Counted from the stretch's first letter, positions 7,525-64,000 are shown. The stretch is 64,000 bases of DNA from Chamaesiphon sp. 336R_metabinner_41 (GCA_025359915.1 JANYDE010000077.1:1-64000); one strand, 5' to 3'. Numbers and translations are program-made. Notes: generated by a model not told the origin, from the letters alone.

Positions 7525-9399
7525 GTGGAATATATGCCTAAGTCAGATTCACAACAGAATACTGAGGGATGGGGCGATATCGATTGGCGTAAAGTTGAGA
7601 GATACGTCTTTAAGCTACAAACGCGCATCTATGCCGCTTCACGTCATGGTGATGTAAAGAAAGTTCGCAAGCTCCAAAGAACATTGATGAGGTCTTGGTC
7701 TAACAGGGTCTTAGCGGCACGACGGGTCACTCAAGATAACACAGGTAAAAATACCGCAGGAGTGGATGGAGTCAAATCTTTGTCCCCAGTAGCGAGAATC
7801 AAACTTGTAGGTCAACTCAAATTAACTGGACTATCGAAACCAACTCGAAGAGTATGGATACCTAAACCAGGGAAATCGGAGAAAAGACCACTAGGAATAC
7901 CCACAATGTACGACCGCGCCTTGCAAGGGGTAGTTAAATCTGCACTTGAACCAGAATGGGAAGCTCAATTTGAGCCTAACAGCTATGGTTTCAGACCAGG
8001 ACGTTCATGTCATGATGCAATCAGACAGATTAAATACTGTATTGGAAGCAAAGCTAAATATGTACTAGATGCAGATATAGCTCAATGTTTCGACCGCATC
8101 AACCATGAGGAATTACTTAAACGGTTAGGGCTGCAAGGAATAGTCAGAAGGCAAATTGCCGCATGGTTAAAATCTGGAGTCATCGACCAAGGAGTATTTA
8201 CTGCTATATCTGAGGGTACGCCACAGGGTGGTGTAATCTCACCGCTTTTAGCGAATATTGCCCTCCACGGCTTGGAACACCAAATATTAAAAGAGTTCCC
8301 CCGAATGTCTCATACAGGCAGGGAAACTTGGTTTCATAAACGAGGGGCTGAATTTAAACCCCCCAATATTATCCGATATGCAGACGATTTTGTCGTTCTA
8401 CATGAAGATAAAGCTGTTGTCCAAAGATGCCGAGAAATCATCTCGATTTGGTTACATGACATTGGATTGAAATTAAAACCTGAAAAGACACGGCTAACTC
8501 ACACGTTCGATGCCGAACTTAGTGAAGATGGTGAAGCTGGGTTTGATTTCTTAGGACATCACATCCAACAATTCCGTGCCGGAAAATATCACTGCACAAG
8601 AGACGCACATGGTAGACCTTTAGGTTTTATAACACTTATCACCCCAACGAAGAAGGCGAGTAAGGCTCATCAAGAAAAGATTAAGAGTATTATCCTAAAA
8701 TACAGGTCTGCGCCCCAAGCGGCGTTAATACAAGTCCTTAACCCTATCATTAAGGGATGGGCGAACTACTACTCCAACTCAGACATCAAAACTGTGAGAG
8801 AGAGTAGCAGACAAGATAATCTTACATACCTGAAACTTCGACGCTGGGCAAAACGCCGCTGTAAGAATAAAATTAGTACTGGACATCAAAAGTATTGGCA
8901 TTCCTATGGTGGCTCAAACTGGGTATTCTCTACCAGGGAGGGAACGAACCCCCTCCGGTTACAATTACATCGGGATGTTGCTTGCAGTAGCACAGACTAT
9001 GTGAAAGTTAAAGGAGATAAAAGTCCATACGATGGCGACCTGGTTTATTGGAGTTCAAGAATGGGTAGACACCCCGAATTGCCTAATCGTGAGGCACTGT
9101 TGCTTAAACAACAGAAGGGTAAATGTACTCATTGCGAATTAACTTTCCGTAATGGCGACCTAATGGAAGTAGACCATATCAACCCCATAGCACTAGGGGG
9201 CAAAGATGTATGGAAGAATCTACAACTATTACACCGACATTGCCATGACCAGAAAACGGCTGTTGACCTAATAGAGATTCGGAAGAAGCAACACTCTGAT
9301 AATCTCAAGAAACTATCCCAACTATGGGATAAAGTAAATTGGGAATGGAGAGAAGATATCCCGTTTATCCGTAGTCAAACAGCCAGAAGCCCAATGTGA
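7525..9399 (+). CDS. ltrA: group II intron reverse transcriptase/maturase with HNH endonuclease
   Basis: This 624-residue intron-encoded protein has RT blocks 0-7: KPGKSEKRPLGIPT, YGFRPGRSCHDA, EGTPQGGVISPLLANI and catalytic YADD at 285-288. The maturase (X) domain follows with the GWANYYS motif. A C-terminal HNH module has CTHC (about 534-537), DHI, and a closing HRHCHDQK. It aids splicing and drives target-primed insertion into DNA. The start is GTG at 7525 or ATG at 7534. No frameshift is seen, so the protein is probably functional. Confidence 0.95.
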   Translation: MEYMPKSDSQQNTEGWGDIDWRKVERYVFKLQTRIYAASRHGDVKKVRKLQRTLMRSWSNRVLAARRVTQDNTGKNTAGVDGVKSLSPVARIKLVGQLKLTGLSKPTRRVWIPKPGKSEKRPLGIPTMYDRALQGVVKSALEPEWEAQFEPNSYGFRPGRSCHDAIRQIKYCIGSKAKYVLDADIAQCFDRINHEELLKRLGLQGIVRRQIAAWLKSGVIDQGVFTAISEGTPQGGVISPLLANIALHGLEHQILKEFPRMSHTGRETWFHKRGAEFKPPNIIRYADDFVVLHEDKAVVQRCREIISIWLHDIGLKLKPEKTRLTHTFDAELSEDGEAGFDFLGHHIQQFRAGKYHCTRDAHGRPLGFITLITPTKKASKAHQEKIKSIILKYRSAPQAALIQVLNPIIKGWANYYSNSDIKTVRESSRQDNLTYLKLRRWAKRRCKNKISTGHQKYWHSYGGSNWVFSTREGTNPLRLQLHRDVACSSTDYVKVKGDKSPYDGDLVYWSSRMGRHPELPNREALLLKQQKGKCTHCELTFRNGDLMEVDHINPIALGGKDVWKNLQLLHRHCHDQKTAVDLIEIRKKQHSDNLKKLSQLWDKVNWEWREDIPFIRSQTARSPM

Positions 9400-9420
9400 C
9401 AAATGGTAAACACATTGAGT

Positions 9421-9490
9421 AGCCGGATGAAGTGAAAGTTTCATGTCCGGTTTCGGATAGGAGGGGTGCAGCAGTAATGCTCACCTCGAC
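9421..9490 (+). ncRNA. group II intron domains V and VI
   Basis: Domain V (9421-9453) keeps the AGC catalytic triad, a GTGAAAG-type terminal loop and paired arms CCGGA/TCCGG and ATGAA/TTTCAT. Domain VI (about 9459-9490) is a GAGG...CCTC hairpin that should carry the branch-point adenosine near its 3' arm. Confidence 0.8.
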
Positions 9491-9498
9491 CTTACCAT

Positions 9499-9546
9499 CC
9501 CCCGACTATGAAAAACAAGCGACAGCGAGTTTTTCATAGTCGGGGG
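9499..9546 (+). terminator. 18-bp perfect hairpin downstream of tnpB / intron
   Basis: The arms cccccgactatgaaaaac (9499-9516) and its exact complement (9529-9546) enclose a 12-nt loop. The tnpB stop codon, once the intron is spliced out, falls inside the left arm. It could be a transcription terminator (T-run inside the stem) or the structured right end of the IS200/IS605 element. Confidence 0.65.
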
Positions 9547-9581
9547 AGTGTCAAATCTAACTGACTTGTCGGGCTAAACCA

Positions 9582-9630
9582 CTGTCTTGAAAAGGGTTTC
9601 CCCAAGACCGCACTTTTCGCTAAACCACCA
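9582..9630. repeat. dispersed repeat (gtcttgaaaag ... gaccgcacttttcgct) plus TAAACCAC copies
   Basis: The words gtcttgaaaag, ccccaagaccgcacttttcgct and the 9-mer ctaaaccac recur in spacers of this window near 309-410, 21,788, 31,565, 51,030, 61,090 and inside the alpha-mannosidase at 61,480-61,527. This is a family of dispersed non-coding repeats of unknown origin. Confidence 0.6.
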
Positions 9631-9635
9631 AACCA

Positions 9636-10190
9636 CTAGTTCCGAACTTTCCCCACATAACAATCATTTAGCCAAATTCCAATCGCCTCTCCCACGACAG
9701 TTTGGCTACTTTCGATCGGCGGTGTAATTGCGTTATTGTGATGGGGAAAGCTACTAATCCGCGAGTAAATGGTTGCCAATCGCCAACCCATGCGTGTCTG
9801 AGCGAGAAATAGCCAATGAAACTGTTGCAATTGGGCTGACTGAATCCCTGTATACTGACGTTCTAGAGTGCTGATAAATACTTGCGTTGGTGCAGTCTGC
9901 GGAAAGCGAGGGGGATATTCTCGGCTGGTGATTTCGATCGACTTTAATTCCGGCAGACTAGCTGTAACAATCGAGCTATACAATTTATCATTACGGCTGC
10001 GACGTTGTTGAATCAACCGATTGGTGTAGCTAGGTAAGTCTCTGACTAGGGCATTTGTCAAATCGGCTAATTTTACCGGACAAGTACTCGATGCTGATGC
10101 GACAATTGGCATGACGACTGGATGTATTAGCTCAATCGCAGGATGGCATCGATTGCTGATATTTAGAATACATGCGGGAAGATAATTCAC
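9636..10190 (-). CDS. conserved hypothetical protein
   Basis: This 184-residue protein has no motif that I recognise. The start is uncertain: GTG at 10190 gives a hydrophobic, Cys-containing N-terminus, and ATG at 10112 (MPIVASASS) is an alternative. The middle is basic (NRLIQQRRSRNDKLYSSIV), and the C-terminal third contains aromatic and amphipathic stretches with a conserved-looking GEAIGIWLNDCYVGKVR end. It may be exported or periplasmic. It is divergent from ald, 47 bp between starts. Confidence 0.6.
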   Translation of the reverse strand: MNYLPACILNISNRCHPAIELIHPVVMPIVASASSTCPVKLADLTNALVRDLPSYTNRLIQQRRSRNDKLYSSIVTASLPELKSIEITSREYPPRFPQTAPTQVFISTLERQYTGIQSAQLQQFHWLFLAQTRMGWRLATIYSRISSFPHHNNAITPPIESSQTVVGEAIGIWLNDCYVGKVRN

Positions 10191-10237
10191 ATTTAGAATT
10201 AGGAAATATTAACTTTAATCCAGCATAAGTACAAAAC

Positions 10238-11329
10238 ATGGAAATTGGCATCCCCAAAGAAACCAAAGACCAAGAATTTCGAGTCGGATTAACGCCCAGT
10301 ATCGTGCGGACATTAGTCGATCGCGGACACCAAGTATACATCGAAACTGGGGCTGGTTTGGGATCTAGTTTTCCCGATCCGCAGTATATTCAAGCTGGTG
10401 CGACGATTGTCCCGACAGCCGCAGCCGCTTGGGATCGGGAAATGGTTGTCAAAGTCAAAGAACCGTTGGCGACTGAATATTCCTACCTCCAAAAAGATCT
10501 AATTCTGTTTACCTATCTCCACCTGGCGGCTAATCGCAATCTTACCGAGCAACTAATCGATACGAGAGTTAATGCGATCGCTTATGAGACAGTAGAATTA
10601 CCAGATGGGAAACTACCTCTGCTCTCGCCGATGAGTATTATTGCGGGACGATTATCTGTCCAATTTGGGGCGAGATTCCTGGAGAAACAACAGGGGGGTA
10701 GTGGTGTGCTCCTCGGTGGTGTCCCTGGCGTACAACCTGGGCAAGTAACTATTCTCGGTGGGGGGATTGTCGGCACAGAAGCCGCACGGATGGCGGTGGG
10801 GATGGGCGCACAGGTGACAATTCTAGATGTTAATATCGATCGATTGAGCTATCTGGAAACTATTTTTGGTTCTCGCGTTACTTATCTCTACAGCAATGCG
10901 TCGAATATCGAAACTGCTGTGCGTAGTGCAGACTTAGTAATTGGCGCGGTATTAATCCTGGGCAAACGTGCGCCGATTCTCGTCTCTAGCACACTTGTGG
11001 GGCAGATGAATCCAGGTTCCGTGATCATCGATGTCGCGGTGGATCAAGGGGGCTGTATTGAGACGTTACGCCCGACTTCTCACACCAATCCTGTCTATAC
11101 AGAATCAGGAGTCGTTCATTACGGCGTGCCGAATATGCCTGGAGCTGTTCCTTGGACAGCAACTCAAGCATTAAATAATAGTACCGCGCCCTATGTAATT
11201 AAATTAGCCGATCGAGGCTTGGAAGCTTTGAATCTAGATCTAAATCTGGCGAAAGGTGTAAATGTTCGAGCAGGTAAAATCATTCATCCAGCAGTGCGAG
11301 AGGTTTTTCCTGATTTACATAGTACCTAA
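10238..11329 (+). CDS. ald: alanine dehydrogenase
   Basis: The 363-residue protein has full family length. The N-terminal pyruvate site is present, with KVKEP (Lys about 72-74) and the catalytic LHLA histidine (about residue 94). The NAD-binding Rossmann motif GGGIVGTEAARMA lies at about 174-186, followed by DVN at the end of beta-2. Ald converts alanine and NAD+ to pyruvate, ammonia and NADH reversibly; in cyanobacteria it is linked to nitrogen recycling. No operon partner is seen. A heptamer array lies downstream. Confidence 0.96.
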   Translation: MEIGIPKETKDQEFRVGLTPSIVRTLVDRGHQVYIETGAGLGSSFPDPQYIQAGATIVPTAAAAWDREMVVKVKEPLATEYSYLQKDLILFTYLHLAANRNLTEQLIDTRVNAIAYETVELPDGKLPLLSPMSIIAGRLSVQFGARFLEKQQGGSGVLLGGVPGVQPGQVTILGGGIVGTEAARMAVGMGAQVTILDVNIDRLSYLETIFGSRVTYLYSNASNIETAVRSADLVIGAVLILGKRAPILVSSTLVGQMNPGSVIIDVAVDQGGCIETLRPTSHTNPVYTESGVVHYGVPNMPGAVPWTATQALNNSTAPYVIKLADRGLEALNLDLNLAKGVNVRAGKIIHPAVREVFPDLHST

Positions 11330-58201: not shown

Positions 58202-59296
58202 ATGAAGATTGCCCAGATTGCACCTTTGTGGGAAAGGGTTCCACCACCAGCTTATGGAGGAATAGAATTAGTAGTCGGACTATTGACAGATGAGTTGGTT
58301 GCTAGAGGACACGAGGTCACTCTATTTGCCTCAGGTGATTCGATTACCGCTGCTAAATTGGTGTCGGTAAACCCTCAAGCAATCCGGCTGGATCCGAATA
58401 TTCAGGAGTGTGGCATCTATGAGATGCTTCAATTAGCCCAGGTGTATGAGCGGGCTGGGGAATTCGATCTGATCCACTCCCATATGGGCTGCGCGGCTTT
58501 GCCTTACGGTAAGTTGACGCAAACACCGACAGTACATACATTGCATGGAATTTTTACGCCAGACAATGAAAAAATGTTTATCCATGCCAAAGCTCAACCC
58601 TATGTGAGCATTTCTAATGCCCAGCGGGAAGACAGGTTGGGATTAAATTATGTGGCGACTGTCTACAACAGCATTGATATGAGTATGCATCACTTTTTTC
58701 CGACTGCTGATGAGCCAGCTTATCTAGCATTTCTGGGGAGAATGTCGGTAGAAAAAGGGCCGCATCACGCGATCGAAATTGCCAAAGCAACTGGGATACC
58801 ATTGAAGATGGCGGGGAAAATCGATCCGGTAGATGTGGAGTATTTCGATCGCGAAATTAAGCCACACATTGATGGTACACACATCCAATTCCTCGGAGAA
58901 GCGGATCACGTAATGAAAAACGATTTGATGGGGAGAGCGATTGCCACCCTATTTCCGATTACCTGGCGGGAACCATTTGGGCTAGTGACGATCGAATCAA
59001 TGGCAGCAGGGACACCTGTCATCGCGATCAATCTTGGCTCCATCCCAGAAATCATCGCGGATGGAGTCAGCGGCTATATCTGCAACTCCGTAGCTGAATG
59101 TATCGCTGCGGTAGCCAAAATTCCGGCGATTTCCCGCGCTGGCTGTCGTGAATATGTCGCCAATCGATTTGGAGTCGAGCAAATGGTGTCAGGTTATGAA
59201 GCCGTTTACCAACAACTGTTGGCAGAAAAATTTGTCCGCAATGGACATCTGGCAACGTTAATTCCCCTCGATCCACTGATTCAGAGAAGTGCGTGA
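58202..59296 (+). CDS. GT4-family glycosyltransferase
   Basis: The 364-residue GT-B protein starts at ATG 58,202 behind AGGAGG, a perfect Shine-Dalgarno. The N-terminal half has APLWERVPPPAYGGIELVVGLL (residues 7-28). The C-terminal half has FLGRMSVEKGPHHAIEIA (about 180-197) and the nucleotide-sugar motif EPFGLVTIESMAAGTPVIAI (E-x7-E, about 258-277). Many cyanobacteria carry this gene near a sucrose-like GT4. Donor and acceptor unknown. Confidence 0.9.
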   Translation: MKIAQIAPLWERVPPPAYGGIELVVGLLTDELVARGHEVTLFASGDSITAAKLVSVNPQAIRLDPNIQECGIYEMLQLAQVYERAGEFDLIHSHMGCAALPYGKLTQTPTVHTLHGIFTPDNEKMFIHAKAQPYVSISNAQREDRLGLNYVATVYNSIDMSMHHFFPTADEPAYLAFLGRMSVEKGPHHAIEIAKATGIPLKMAGKIDPVDVEYFDREIKPHIDGTHIQFLGEADHVMKNDLMGRAIATLFPITWREPFGLVTIESMAAGTPVIAINLGSIPEIIADGVSGYICNSVAECIAAVAKIPAISRAGCREYVANRFGVEQMVSGYEAVYQQLLAEKFVRNGHLATLIPLDPLIQRSA

Positions 59297-59571
59297 TTTT
59301 AGCGGACTTTGTATTGTTTGCTACGGCTGGTTACTACAGCTCCACGGTAGTCTAGTAATTATTTCAGCCAACCGACTGAAGTCAATCAGCCACCCCCCCA
59401 GTAACAATTAAGTTGAGATCGTTTGCAAATCTTCATCTATATGATTTGGGCGATCGATCGAGTAGTAAATAGGCTGTAGCCCTTACAGATTGGCTCGATT
59501 CACGATCACAAGTGCAATTAACTTAATTAATTATTTAAAATCGAATGTCAATTTTTTATAGAGGTGCCGAT

Positions 59572-60966
59572 ATGTCAACAGGAAAATTTCCCGCCACACA
59601 ATCCAACCAACCATTCGCCTCAGCGCGTACCAAAATTCCTACCCGCCAAGCCATCGCCTTAATCTCCGAACATGGAGATCCAGCCGCAGAAATCGGTAAA
59701 GACGCGGCTGGTGGACAAAATGTTTACGTTCGTCAAGTGGGTGAATCCTTAGCTAAACTCGGTTGGCAAGTAGATATGTTCACGCGGAAAAGTAACCCAA
59801 ATGATGCGACGATCGTTCAGCATTCCCCTTACTGTCGCACGATTCGGCTGATTGCGGGGCCAGAGACTTATATTCCCCGTGACGAACTGTTCCAATACAT
59901 GCCCGAATTCGTCACCTCATTTCAAAAATTCCAACAAAAAGAAGGGACAAATTATCCCTTAGCCCACACAAACTACTGGATGTCTGGTTGGGTAGGTTTA
60001 GAACTCCAACGTCGCCAAAATATTCAATTGATCCATACCTACCATTCGCTGGGTGCGGTTAAATATCAATCAGTTAGTGAAATCCCCACCATTGCTCAAA
60101 CTAGATTAGCGGTTGAGAAACAAATCCTCGAACAGGCGCACTCGGTAGTCGCTACCAGTCCCCAAGAATTCGACGATCTCGAAAATTTAGTTTCTCGTCT
60201 GGGTAATATTGATATAATTCCCTGCGGGACAGATGTCAGTACTTTTCGCCCGATCTCCAAAGTTGAAGCCAGAAAACAACTAGACATCAGTGGTAAAGAA
60301 AAAGTGGTCCTGTATGTCGGTCGTTTTGACAAGCGCAAAGGGATCGAAACTCTCGTCCGCGCTACCAGAGAATTGCGGGCGCAATTAGAGCAAGGGGAAG
60401 AAATCGATCCTCAAAACTTAAAACTATTAATTGTCGGTGGTAGCGATCCGCAGGAAGCTGATGGAGCAGAGCGTCGGCGGATTGAAGACTTGGTGACAGA
60501 ATTAGATTTGACGGCTAATACTGAATTCGTCGGGATGGTTGGACACGATCGATTAGCACTCTATTATACGGCTGCGGATGTCTGTGTGATTCCTAGTCAT
60601 TATGAACCATTTGGGTTAGTGGCGATCGAAGCAATGGCATGTGGAACGCCTGTAGTTGCTTCTGCTGTCGGTGGTTTGAAATTCACAGTTATTTCTGAGG
60701 AAACTGGCTTACTAGTACCACCTCATGATGTCGCTAAATTTGCTCATGCGATCGAACGCATCTTAACTGATGATATCTGGGCACGGAAAGCTCGTAAACA
60801 AGCTTCGGCACGGGTACAACAGAACTTTAGTTGGACTGGTGTGGCAATTCAATTGAGCGATCTCTATCGCCGATTGTTGGCGCAATCACTCTCCGGTTCT
60901 GGCATCGCACGCGGATCGAGTGCTACTTCGACACTTTTACCCAAACAAGTTGTCAAAGCATCTTAA
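59572..60966 (+). CDS. GT4-family glycosyltransferase, sucrose-synthase/SPS-like
   Basis: ATG at 59,572 has AGAGG seven bases upstream; ATG 59,545 is a worse choice. The 464-residue protein has the sucrose-synthase-type head ALISEHGDPAAEIGKDAAGGQNVYVRQ. Further on are THTYHSLGAVK-type and IPCGTDVSTFRP motifs, YVGRFDKRKGIETLVRA, and the donor motif EPFGLVAIEAMACGTPVVAS (about 342-361). It may make a sucrose-related or glycolipid bond, but its real substrate is unproven. It is 275 bp after the first GT4, on the same strand. Confidence 0.88.
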   Translation: MSTGKFPATQSNQPFASARTKIPTRQAIALISEHGDPAAEIGKDAAGGQNVYVRQVGESLAKLGWQVDMFTRKSNPNDATIVQHSPYCRTIRLIAGPETYIPRDELFQYMPEFVTSFQKFQQKEGTNYPLAHTNYWMSGWVGLELQRRQNIQLIHTYHSLGAVKYQSVSEIPTIAQTRLAVEKQILEQAHSVVATSPQEFDDLENLVSRLGNIDIIPCGTDVSTFRPISKVEARKQLDISGKEKVVLYVGRFDKRKGIETLVRATRELRAQLEQGEEIDPQNLKLLIVGGSDPQEADGAERRRIEDLVTELDLTANTEFVGMVGHDRLALYYTAADVCVIPSHYEPFGLVAIEAMACGTPVVASAVGGLKFTVISEETGLLVPPHDVAKFAHAIERILTDDIWARKARKQASARVQQNFSWTGVAIQLSDLYRRLLAQSLSGSGIARGSSATSTLLPKQVVKAS

Positions 60967-61021
60967 ATTAATTGATAGTTGATAATTGATAATTGGGTGT
61001 TTAGGATGGGAATTGAGCGGA

Positions 61022-61058
61022 TGCATTTATGGACGGGTGCTCCGTCCATAAAAATGCA
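61022..61058. repeat. palindromic repeat (tgcatttATGGACGG / CCGTCCATaaaaatgca)
   Basis: An almost perfect stem-loop with a 5-nt loop lies just after the GT4 stop; it may help termination. Confidence 0.55.
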
Positions 61059-61098
61059 CCAAGCAAACCCCTGCTCCGACAGCCTATTGACTGTCTTG

Positions 61099-61141
61099 AA
61101 AAAGTGATCTACTTGCGGAAACCGCAAGTAGATCACTTTTT
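61099..61141. terminator. 20-bp perfect hairpin terminator
   Basis: aaaaagtgatctacttgcgg and its exact complement flank an AAA loop, with T-runs on both strands. It lies between the convergent GT4 and alpha-mannosidase genes and shares its gtcttgaaaa flank with the dispersed repeat family. Confidence 0.8.
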
Positions 61142-61167
61142 GTTAAACCACTGTTCACTCTAGATCT

Positions 61168-64000
61168 CTAATTGGATACTAGGAAGGGAGTAATCCCGAA
61201 GCTCCGAATTTGCCAAGGTTGAAGATATTGAATATTTCGATCTACTAGCTCCGATTGGGTTTGTTCGAGTAAATTTACCACTCGATCGATCCTTAAATCC
61301 AGATCTCCGGCTAACTCAATTTGGCTCTCGATTCCATGACACTCATAACACCGCAATATCCACGATTGAGCGCGAGTCTCTGATGGTTTGAATGCCATTA
61401 AAACTAGATTTTCCGCCTGTAAATCGATAAAACTATTACTACAACGAAGTCTCCCAGTCTCCCAGTCTCCCAGTTTGTCTTGAAAAGGTGCTCTCGCATA
61501 GGAAACCCCAAGACCGCACTTTTCGCTCCCAGTCCCCCAGTCTTCAATTACTTGCAATGGTGAATTCAATTCCAATCCCCTCCGCACAGTCTGAGCGGTT
61601 TGCCAGGTGCCACTGTGAGGATAAATTGCATAGGTAAATTCATGATAACCTCTATCGGCTGTGGGATTCGGCCATTTGCTACCTCTGAGTAGGGTTAGTC
61701 TCAAATAATCGGTACCTGCGTCGAAGCCATATTTACAGTCATTTAATAAACTCACCCCATACGCGCCAAGATGATCCGTGAGATCTGTCCAGCGATGCAT
61801 GGGTAATTCCCATTTTGCTCGCTCGGCGGCGGTTTCGGGTGTGGTGGTGCGCTCTATTGCGCCGCAAGCAGTTTCGGACGTGGAGATATCCGCAGTAATA
61901 TTTAAAGGAAAGTTGACTTTAATTAGAATGTGTTCGGCTTGCCAATCGACAGCGGTTTCGATTCTAACGATCGAGCTATGAGCATCTAAGATATAATCTT
62001 GACGAAATTCTGCTCCAGCTAATTCCCGCACGACTCGCAAGCGTTGACGAATTATACCTTTTTCCATCCATTCGATCGATCTTAGCTGACTTGGTGGTAA
62101 TGGTTTTTGGGCGTATTGAGGATCGATATTCCACGCATCCCAGTATTGTCCCTCGTCTTGGAAGGCTTGGAGCTGATTGGCTCCTGTAGATATTATTTCA
62201 CGGTGGTTGAGGATGTCGTAAATGCTGTCAATGTCTCCGGTTTCGGAGTCGATTTTTACTTTGACGAATTGGTTTTTAAAAATGAAATGGCTGGAAGCTT
62301 GTGGTTTCGTTGTTGGAGTTGTGGCGGAGATCCACCCACCCCCCCCTTCGGGTACCCCTCCGAGGAGGGGACTTTCAACTCTATTCTCCGATTGGAAACC
62401 CCCGCTTTCCAAGGGATATGCTGGGGAAATCCTCTCTTGGGAGGGGTACCCGAAGGGGGGGGTGGGTAGATCTTCGCCGCCACCACTTTCAATTTGCATA
62501 TTGAACACCAACCAAAATAAGCGATAACCAACGCTCGGTAAATCTTGTGCGAAAAATAAGATATGTTCGGCGGTTGCTTGACTGGGTAATAATTTTCCAT
62601 CCGCATCAAATACACACCACGCATCCAGATTGGGATCTAGAGGATATTTAATTACCTCACTACGCTCCCAATTAAGCGCATTAAAAATCACGATCGCAAT
62701 TGCGCCCTCGATCGGTGGCGTTGGCAGTATAATTCGATCGCTAATATCACCCAACGCATCGCTAATGATCTGCGTCGTGACTCGCTCGACATTTTCCCAT
62801 CCCTGATTCGCCGTCACATATACGGGGTCGATTGCGGTGCCTGGAATGATATCGTGGAATTGATTAAATAATGTTTGCTTCCAAGCTGTCTCAATCTGCA
62901 ATCTCAGCTCGTCGGGATAATCCTGTTTTGTGACGATACAGGCGATCGATGACCACAGTTCCGCCTGATATAATAAGTCCTCACACTGCCGATTCGATCG
63001 CTTTTGATCGGCGTGGGTAGTAAAACAACCACGATGGAATTCTAGATAGAGTTCATCTTTCCAAACGGGTAACAGATGACTATCGGTTCTATTTGCCAAC
63101 TTATCTAGATATTTAACCGCCGTCGTAAATTCTAGCTTGGGGAATACGTCTGAATTTGACCATCGATCGGCAATCTCCAACATATCACGAGTCGGTCCAC
63201 CCCCATGATCGCCCACGCCGAATAAATATAACGATTCATTTATCCCCGTAGCAGTTTGCCATTTACAAGCATAATCCACCATCTTCAATGGATCAATCCC
63301 TTCCCCAATCGGCGACGACATTAGACTTAATACCCGACTTCCATCGGGAGATTCCCACCAAAATAATTGATGGGGAAATTGCGTCGTATCATTCCACAGA
63401 AACTTTTGCGTCACGAAATAATCAATCCCGCCTTGCTGTAATAACTGCGGTAATTGTTGACAAAATCCAAACGTATCCGGTAGCCATGCAACCTTAGTAA
63501 TTGCGCCAAAACGAGCAAGATTGTATGACTGTCCATACATAATTTGTCTGGCGATCGATTCCCCCGAAATCAAGTTAAGATCTGGTTCAATCCACATCCC
63601 CCCCAAAACTTCCCACTTACCCGCCTGTATTTGGGCGCAAATACCTGTAAATACCTCCGGCTGATTCAGCTCCATCCACTCATACAAAGCCGGAGTAGAA
63701 TGGCAAAAAGTCAGATCGGGAAATAACTGCTGTAGACTGAGAGTCGATCGAAACGTCCGCTCCGCCACCTCCCAAGTTTCCGCCACCTCCCACAACCATG
63801 CCATATCCAGATGCGCATGTCCCAAAAGTTGAATAGTTTTTACCCCACCCCAACCCTCCCCTTGTAAAGGAGAGGGAGTCAAAGCCCCCCTTTCTAAGGG
63901 GGGTTGGGGGGGTAACAGATCCTCGCCGTAGTCAGTTAAAGTTTTTGAATTGCTGCGGAGATCTGATACCCCACCCCAGCCCTCCCCTTGTAAAGGAGAG
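61168..64000 (-). CDS. GH38 alpha-mannosidase, 5' end beyond the window, with repeat-derived insertions
   Basis: The minus-strand frame runs from TAG at 61,168 through the right edge without a stop (over 940 codons). The GH38 catalytic HLDMAW is in LLGHAHLDMAWLWEV, and the nucleophile Asp is in WLPDTFGF; the C-terminal beta domains follow. It hydrolyses alpha-mannosides. In-frame additions: WEVAET is duplicated (18 bp); a TPPFGYPSQ...PEGGGG insertion at 62,332-62,468; a repeat at 61,450-61,542; and two SPLQGEGWGGV copies near 63,850 and 63,980. Activity is unproven. Confidence 0.88.
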   Translation of the reverse strand, partial: SPLQGEGWGGVSDLRSNSKTLTDYGEDLLPPQPPLERGALTPSPLQGEGWGGVKTIQLLGHAHLDMAWLWEVAETWEVAERTFRSTLSLQQLFPDLTFCHSTPALYEWMELNQPEVFTGICAQIQAGKWEVLGGMWIEPDLNLISGESIARQIMYGQSYNLARFGAITKVAWLPDTFGFCQQLPQLLQQGGIDYFVTQKFLWNDTTQFPHQLFWWESPDGSRVLSLMSSPIGEGIDPLKMVDYACKWQTATGINESLYLFGVGDHGGGPTRDMLEIADRWSNSDVFPKLEFTTAVKYLDKLANRTDSHLLPVWKDELYLEFHRGCFTTHADQKRSNRQCEDLLYQAELWSSIACIVTKQDYPDELRLQIETAWKQTLFNQFHDIIPGTAIDPVYVTANQGWENVERVTTQIISDALGDISDRIILPTPPIEGAIAIVIFNALNWERSEVIKYPLDPNLDAWCVFDADGKLLPSQATAEHILFFAQDLPSVGYRLFWLVFNMQIESGGGEDLPTPPFGYPSQERISPAYPLESGGFQSENRVESPLLGGVPEGGGGWISATTPTTKPQASSHFIFKNQFVKVKIDSETGDIDSIYDILNHREIISTGANQLQAFQDEGQYWDAWNIDPQYAQKPLPPSQLRSIEWMEKGIIRQRLRVVRELAGAEFRQDYILDAHSSIVRIETAVDWQAEHILIKVNFPLNITADISTSETACGAIERTTTPETAAERAKWELPMHRWTDLTDHLGAYGVSLLNDCKYGFDAGTDYLRLTLLRGSKWPNPTADRGYHEFTYAIYPHSGTWQTAQTVRRGLELNSPLQVIEDWGTGSEKCGLGVSYARAPFQDKLGDWETGRLRCSNSFIDLQAENLVLMAFKPSETRAQSWILRCYECHGIESQIELAGDLDLRIDRVVNLLEQTQSELVDRNIQYLQPWQIRSFGITPFLVSN
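61450..61542. repeat. 8-bp tandem repeat plus dispersed repeat inside the alpha-mannosidase gene
   Basis: Three copies of tctcccag are followed by gtcttgaaaaggtgctctcg and ccccaagaccgcacttttcgct, the same words as in spacers. The insert codes about 30 residues (CGLGVSYARAPFQDKLGDWE) in frame. Confidence 0.8.
62332..62468. mobile_element. 137-bp MITE-like element with 28-bp inverted ends, inside the alpha-mannosidase gene
   Basis: acccaccccccccttcgggt... (62,334-62,361) is the exact reverse complement of 62,440-62,467. The body is ORF-neutral: on the minus strand it reads DLPTPPFGYPSQERISPAYP, then ESPLLGGVPEGGGGW, in frame with the host gene. Confidence 0.82.
63841..64000. repeat. two direct copies of a PSPLQGEGWGGV-type repeat plus ccccc-rich inverted repeat
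   Basis: ccccaccccaaccctcccc... (63,843-63,877) and a second copy (63,969-64,000) are in the same direction and 126 bp apart. Between them, cccccctttctaaggggggt is a short palindrome. All of it stays open in the alpha-mannosidase frame. Confidence 0.82.

Follow-up and report, generated by a model that had tools for sequence, protein, structure and literature searches.

Rickettsia palindromic elements (RPEs; Ogata et al. 2000) are short dispersed palindromes whose length is given as 105-146 bp or about 150 bp in the accounts of PMC2229807 and PMC10969869. According to the same accounts, they lie in frame in many unrelated conserved genes and are translated together with the host protein, and a tested protein, guanylate kinase, stays functional. 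REPs, likewise dispersed palindromes, also occur inside ORFs (Di Nocera et al. 2013, PMC3733652): dimers and clusters have been found in coding regions, and two Xanthomonas species carry different REPs at about the same position in recB. In Coxiella burnetii, QMITEs add residues to proteins, and the insertions that affect functional genes lie at the 3' end (PMC5896051). Very small repeated elements have been reported in cyanobacterial genomes (Elhai et al. 2008, Genome Research 18:1484, as cited in PMC3733652). Finally, the G/C-rich class II intrastrand triplex motif of E. coli has the consensus CCCTCNCCC-N3-6-GGGNGAGGG-N3-GGGNGAGGG; class II motifs are reported to be very frequent in cyanobacteria and, in E. 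coli, always intergenic (Holder et al. 2015, PMC4666352).

Here we describe a GH38 alpha-mannosidase gene of Chamaesiphon that carries members of at least three short repeat families, which we call E1, E2 and E3. The gene lies at the end of the window, by which we mean the whole stretch of 64,000 nucleotides that was analyzed (positions 1-64000 of a 69,958-base contig). The source is a draft genome of 4.23 Mb in 169 contigs. We consider it highly probable that this is a working GH38 alpha-mannosidase and that small dispersed palindromic repeats, translated within the protein, have settled in its three flexible linkers.

Like RPEs, E1, E2 and E3 are short dispersed palindromes found in frame in unrelated conserved genes. 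They differ from RPEs in having other sequences, in another phylum, and in that most copies are intergenic; moreover, they are built of G/C-rich hairpin modules and triplex motifs, and the same linker is filled again by other families in other species. The Xanthomonas recB REPs are a direct precedent for repeats entering the same position more than once, as in the mannosidase linkers. Unlike the QMITEs, which affect 3' ends in Coxiella, the Chamaesiphon repeats are in internal linkers of conserved enzymes. With the small dispersed repeats of Elhai et al. and the Nezha MITEs they share being tiny cyanobacterial repeats, and we claim no sequence identity. By behaviour, then, the Chamaesiphon repeats resemble RPEs and ORF-borne REPs, an analogy by which we do not claim membership among the RPEs.

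The alpha-mannosidase gene is complete

A sequence-only reading of the window had described a frame open over the visible 2,833 bp. On the contig this frame extends beyond the window, from an ATG at 64743 (743 bases past the window edge) to a stop at 61168, and its translation gives 1191 residues with zero internal stops. The stretch beyond base 64,000, singled out by that reading as the place where stops might appear, contains none.

61168..64000, minus strand: in-window part of the GH38 alpha-mannosidase gene (frame open to the upstream stop; Pfam; Foldseek)
63058..63837, minus strand: GH38 N-terminal catalytic domain (Pfam Glyco_hydro_38N), with HLDMAW, LPDTFGF and GDHGGG unbroken
62746..63042, minus strand: GH38 middle domain (Pfam)
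61663..62277, minus strand: GH38 C-terminal domain (Pfam)

A Pfam profile search matched Glyco_hydro_38N at 1.8e-81 and recovered the full GH38 domain order (38N, Alpha-mann_mid, 38C, 38C2), with PF01074, PF09261, PF07748 and PF17677 every one above its cut-off. The nearest solved structures found by Foldseek are the yeast Ams1 and Bl_Man38 alpha-mannosidases. Fold and catalytic motifs are common to Ams1, Bl_Man38A/B/C and the Chamaesiphon enzyme; the repeat-derived linkers set the latter apart. The metal-binding and nucleophile motifs HxD, PD[ST]FG and GDHG are present, and columns H63, D65, D175, D264 and H265, which in GH38 enzymes serve in metal binding and as the nucleophile, are invariant among 43 aligned sequences. 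Judged by its sequence, the gene encodes an intact GH38 alpha-mannosidase with predicted catalytic activity.

Dispersed repeats occupy three sites in the gene

The proposal of at least three separate repeat insertions is borne out by sites 1, 2 and 3, each of which holds repeats dispersed genome-wide.

63838..64000, minus strand: in-window part of the site 1 insert, a gap in homologues, with pLDDT <50 at residues 1-48
62296..62505, minus strand: site 2 insert region, between the GH38 middle and C-terminal domains (window-protein residues 499-568)
62317..62487, minus strand: inverted E1 pair, 171 bp, encoding GGGEDLPTPPFGYPSQER...ESPLLGGVPEGGGGW
61438..61548, minus strand: site 3 insert region, E3 plus AGTCTCCC array, inside the C-terminal part (window-protein residues 818-854)
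61487..61519, minus strand: E3 core, encoding CGLGVSYARAP, with 6 close genome copies
61448..61474, no strand: 8-bp tandem array, AGTCTCCC x 3.4, at the E3 edge, from tandem-repeat finding

Site 1 lies just N-terminal of the catalytic domain, and its insert encodes SPLQGEGWGGV...PPQPPLERGALTPSPLQGEGWGGV. The two SPLQGEGWGGV copies noticed earlier before HLDMAW correspond to two E2 copies (63841-63874 and 63967-64000) with 97% identical DNA, and a C6/G6 hairpin module lies between them at 63885-63903. Both E2 copies belong to a longer insert, which reaches past 64,000 into an E1 copy at about 64004-64066. The E2 core, CTCCTTTACAAGGGGAGGGTTGGGG, has the layout CCCTCCCC-N7-GGGGAGGG-CTG-GGGTGGGG. 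Read antiparallel, its third block matches every G with a G and every A with a T, which would give G.GC and T.AT triads. For 36 out of 55 E2 copies the layout is perfect (8/8 hairpin positions and 8/8 triads, second loop of 3 nt), and the mannosidase's two copies score 7/8 and 8/8 on the triplex-layout test. E2 thus shares with the class II motif the order pyrimidine, loop, purine, 3 nt and third strand, with triads in register. It departs from it in a first loop of 7 nt, against the 1-6 nt allowed by the published triplex finder (PMC4666352), and in having copies translated inside conserved genes, whereas the E. coli motif is intergenic. By layout, E2 is a class II intrastrand triplex motif, the sole membership of a named family that we claim. 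Coding E2 copies are most often read as SPLQGEGWGGVK, in a set of copies too small for statistics.

At site 2, two copies of E1 (core GGGAGGGGTACCCGAAGGGGGGG) face each other. Their arms, 62318-62374 and 62427-62483, are 57 nt long, 86% complementary and 52 nt apart, and amount to MITE-like terminal inverted repeats. A 137-bp palindromic element with 28-bp inverted ends had been described here; the palindrome is real, and both the size and the ends had been put too small. The E1 pair is predicted to fold as RNA at -120 kcal/mol (z -10.9 vs shuffles). A comparable inverted E1 pair lies elsewhere in the genome (G000:C18:26193-26347).

At site 3, the expected 8-bp array and dispersed repeat were both found, at 61448-61474 and 61487-61519 (E3), respectively. 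Outside the gene, two family 4-type glycosyltransferase genes at 58202-60966 are convergent with that of the mannosidase. Between the convergent genes, at 61099-61141, is a perfect 20-nt inverted repeat with a 3-nt loop (AAAAAGTGATCTACTTGCGG/CCGCAAGTAGATCACTTTTT), probably a bidirectional terminator, and its flank, TGTCTTGAAAAAGTG, resembles an E3 end (76% over 37 nt).

A fourth repeat, an 18-bp duplication giving WEVAETWEVAE, had also been listed as an insertion.

63760..63792, minus strand: WEVAETWEVAE segment, ancestral, at a conserved helix start

The DNA repeat exists, as two 14-nt copies 18 bp apart, but we reject the insertion. The 10-residue segment is ungapped in all 28 tabulated GH38 homologues, in and out of the genus (for instance PVSETWxAAQ and EVAETWEVAD), and WEVAETWEVAE starts a well-predicted helix (residues 72-92) in the AlphaFold2 model.

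Copies are dispersed and modular

Pattern searches allowing up to 3 mismatches, whose counts are lower bounds, found 16 E1, 55 E2 and 6 E3 copies in the source genome, while reversed control patterns found 0. A wider E3 core has 24 copies. Within the window, all E1 and E2 cores detected fall in the mannosidase gene. Of the 77 close element copies, 6 sit in this 3.6-kb gene against 0.065 expected under uniform independent placement, a post hoc figure for copies that cluster within sites. Counting three sites among about 70 loci, again post hoc and under uniform placement, gives a P of about 3e-5.

Elsewhere in the genome, a GTAG-ended hairpin, ACTTGTGTATACACGGTAG, stands beside E2 copies in 19 distinct contexts. 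It lies between E2-type modules at L011, L018, L019, L152, L181, L216, L223 and other loci, so the arrays are mosaics in which hairpin, triplex-type and GTAG modules are combined. No GTAG-ended hairpin was identified within the mannosidase inserts; a GTAG/CGTC tag at the ends of the E1, E2 and E3 cores would liken them to REPs. A difference from REPs is that the Y1 neighbourhoods are without E1 or E2: none of the seven Y1 (RAYT-like) transposase loci in the genome is flanked by E1/E2, the C6/G6 module or the GTAG hairpin, on which ground we rejected the idea that a RAYT/Y1 transposase moves the elements. No clear target-site duplication emerged when empty sites were aligned with filled ones, and Rfam had zero matches in 60900-64000.

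The same linkers hold different repeats in relatives

We compared the orthologues of nine Chamaesiphon genomes (G000-G008, with G000 the source). Across these genomes the mannosidase inserts appear as gaps or as different sequence. In alignments with GH38 homologues, the inserts of sites 1, 2 and 3 come out as gaps, as the sequence-only reading had anticipated.

At site 1, E1 is present in 7 of the 9 species, with the peptide GGDLPTPPFGYPSxEG, so it is probably old there; further additions differ by species. G008 has no site 1 E1, while its sister G001 retains it, and in G001 (82% complete) this is the sole close E1 copy found in the genome. At site 2, the sister species G000 and G002 carry an E1 pair and an E2, respectively; an E2-type repeat also occupies the site in G004 and G007, and in G005 it holds an E3-type repeat that is itself dispersed within that genome. 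In G001 and G008 the site is nearly empty, a seven-residue linker. The presence of different families at the same sites indicates that the linkers were entered more than once. At site 3 of G006 (L110), a G-rich minisatellite-like insert, GEGERGRVGDEGTGRS, stands where the source genome has E3, and is another independent event.

That 7 of the 9 species have kept E1 at site 1 could hint at more than neutrality. The inserts might themselves be selected, their peptides or mRNA/DNA structures (hairpin, possible triplex, G-rich) regulating translation, co-translational folding or linker length. A peptide recognisable in most species fits this explanation, as do the very stable site 2 RNA fold and a site 1 pN/pS below 1 (0.43-0.66). 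However, that ratio comes from few codons and indicates a constraint 3-5 times weaker than in the core, content at the same site varies among species, and G008 lacks both inserts yet has an open gene under purifying selection. We therefore consider selection for the inserts unlikely.

For the wider comparison, we used sets of 28 homologues (stricter motif) and 99 homologues (looser motif). Outside the genus, the median length of site 1 is 16 residues (91 homologues), and in several long cases the sequence matches repeats that are dispersed in the same genome. At site 1, Nostoc and other genomes carry C6/G6 hairpins. In Microcoleus sp. FACHB-61, site 1 contains the repeat AACCGCAGAGGGCGCAGAG, which has 55 genome copies; the linker (L088) is 106 residues long and consists of a tandem pair of a unit with the peptide EGTAEGAE. 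At site 3 of Nostoc linckia z4, an E3 core is present, with 28 genome copies.

The relatives also bear on the quality of the assembly. Repeats could have been collapsed or chimerically joined in a metagenome-assembled genome, and a draft in 169 contigs invites the concern since assemblies break at repeats. Such an artefact is extremely improbable, given that the frame is kept through every insert, that unique coding flanks on both sides match the orthologues in order, and that homologous site 1 inserts occur in independent relatives, including the complete-genome G006 (3 contigs), which bears E1.

The gene is under purifying selection

In order to explain the open frame, the sequence-only reading had offered two options, that selection keeps it or that the gene is young in decay. 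With the inserts excluded, the core of the gene has a dN/dS of 0.13-0.15 in pairwise comparisons with other Chamaesiphon orthologues. On the terminal branches, the source has 25 nonsynonymous and 71 synonymous changes and its sister 25 and 81. With other outgroups the source branch is slightly higher (0.32-0.38 vs 0.22-0.28), far under the neutral expectation. The mannosidase gene is not decaying, and purifying selection persists.

A young pseudogene, in an organism that no longer needs the enzyme, would let inserts pile up and keep its frame open by luck. Three separate inserts in one gene are in line with this, as is the enrichment of copies described above, with its caveats of being post hoc and clustered. 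Against it, the frame is complete past 64,000, every domain and motif is intact, the source's own branch is not elevated in the closest comparison, and relatives with inserts at the same linkers also have open genes. As purifying selection persists and the branch ratio matches that of the sister, the suggestion of early decay is unsupported; we rejected it on the branch ratio and the unbroken motifs, and regard a pseudogene as very unlikely. The first option, that selection keeps the frame, agrees with these data.

It had also been argued that random repeats would often break a frame. Of the 6 frames, 4 are free of stops in the site 2 E1 pair and 5 in its 137-bp core, while ordinary window sequence of matched size has a mean of about 1 open frame; the comparison is somewhat biased because any copy that sits inside a gene must have at least one such frame. 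The elements are stop-poor, which makes the survival of the frame less surprising than claimed. Only 10 of the 55 E2 copies lie inside long frames, while about 85% of the window is coding, which is consistent with a strong filter on coding insertions. For 2 of these 10, near an N terminus, the true start may lie downstream.

The inserts had been predicted to form surface loops. In the AlphaFold2 model of the window part (pTM 0.83), the three longest stretches below pLDDT 50 (residues 1-48, 504-568 and 824-844) are the three insert sites, so that mapping places every insert in a long low-confidence stretch. This fits flexible linkers or loops in the model, and counts as support only, because low confidence is expected wherever relatives have gaps.

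The same repeats lie in frame in other conserved genes

About eight other conserved proteins of the source genome have E1, E2 or E3 in frame. The carriers are CtaA, a gamma-glutamyltranspeptidase, a CobN/Mg-chelatase-like protein (in two linkers), a hybrid histidine kinase (L180) with a second in-frame E3 copy, a radical SAM-DUF2344 protein, a CobB/CobQ-like amidotransferase and, near the N terminus, CobW and DnaN. In the last two, in-frame E2 copies lie just upstream of the DnaN (L161, G000:C67) and CobW (L154, G000:C29) domains; they may extend the N terminus, or the true start may come after them. Dispersed palindromes with many copies are thus in frame in several unrelated conserved genes, as RPEs are, and the mannosidase is a rich example of a genome-wide process.

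Two of these proteins resemble the mannosidase in how their inserts vary. When the CobN-like protein is matched to eight other Chamaesiphon genomes, the matches are interrupted at its repeat-bearing linkers, and both linkers have different repeat-derived peptides in different species. These linkers (L173/L212; G000:C82, about 8,000-11,000) are roughly 90-110 and 55-80 residues long. The gamma-glutamyltranspeptidase insert is absent from most species and different in G002. Relatives and other enzymes carry different repeats in such linkers, which argues for recurrent, tolerated insertions and against decay.

Discussion

In the explanation that we favour, at least three short, stop-poor, hairpin-forming families would keep landing across the genome. 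To survive in a conserved gene, an insertion would have to add a whole number of codons net, keep the frame open and fall in a linker that tolerates it. Under that filter, the same linkers would fill, diversify and sometimes empty between species. The inserts would be translated in the cell and close to neutral, and we infer that they were placed by insertion rather than by gene conversion or template-switch copying.

This explanation could be carried further. Certain cyanobacterial enzyme linkers might be standing landing sites, entered, replaced and left by unrelated families in the course of evolution; translated repeats would then supply new linker sequence continually and across the phylum, and older inserts such as E1 at site 1 might be kept for a function like linker length or translation pausing. 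We offer this extension tentatively and consider it unlikely.

What is new here is that the repeat family at sites 1 and 2 differs from one Chamaesiphon species to another, that unrelated dispersed repeats occupy sites 1 and 3 in other cyanobacteria, and that conserved proteins besides the mannosidase carry the same repeats in frame in the source genome. One of the translated elements is, by layout, an intrastrand triplex motif, of a class for which only intergenic copies are reported in E. coli. For annotators, SPLQGEGWGGV, DLPTPPFGYPSxEG and PPLIKGRE should be taken as translated repeats, neither domains nor sequencing errors. The nine sister genomes and a second enzyme provide a clean natural series, in which the same linker is empty, holds one family or holds another, and the share of linker evolution that comes from dispersed repeats becomes testable. 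The Rickettsia-type pattern of selfish DNA read as protein would thereby extend to free-living cyanobacteria.
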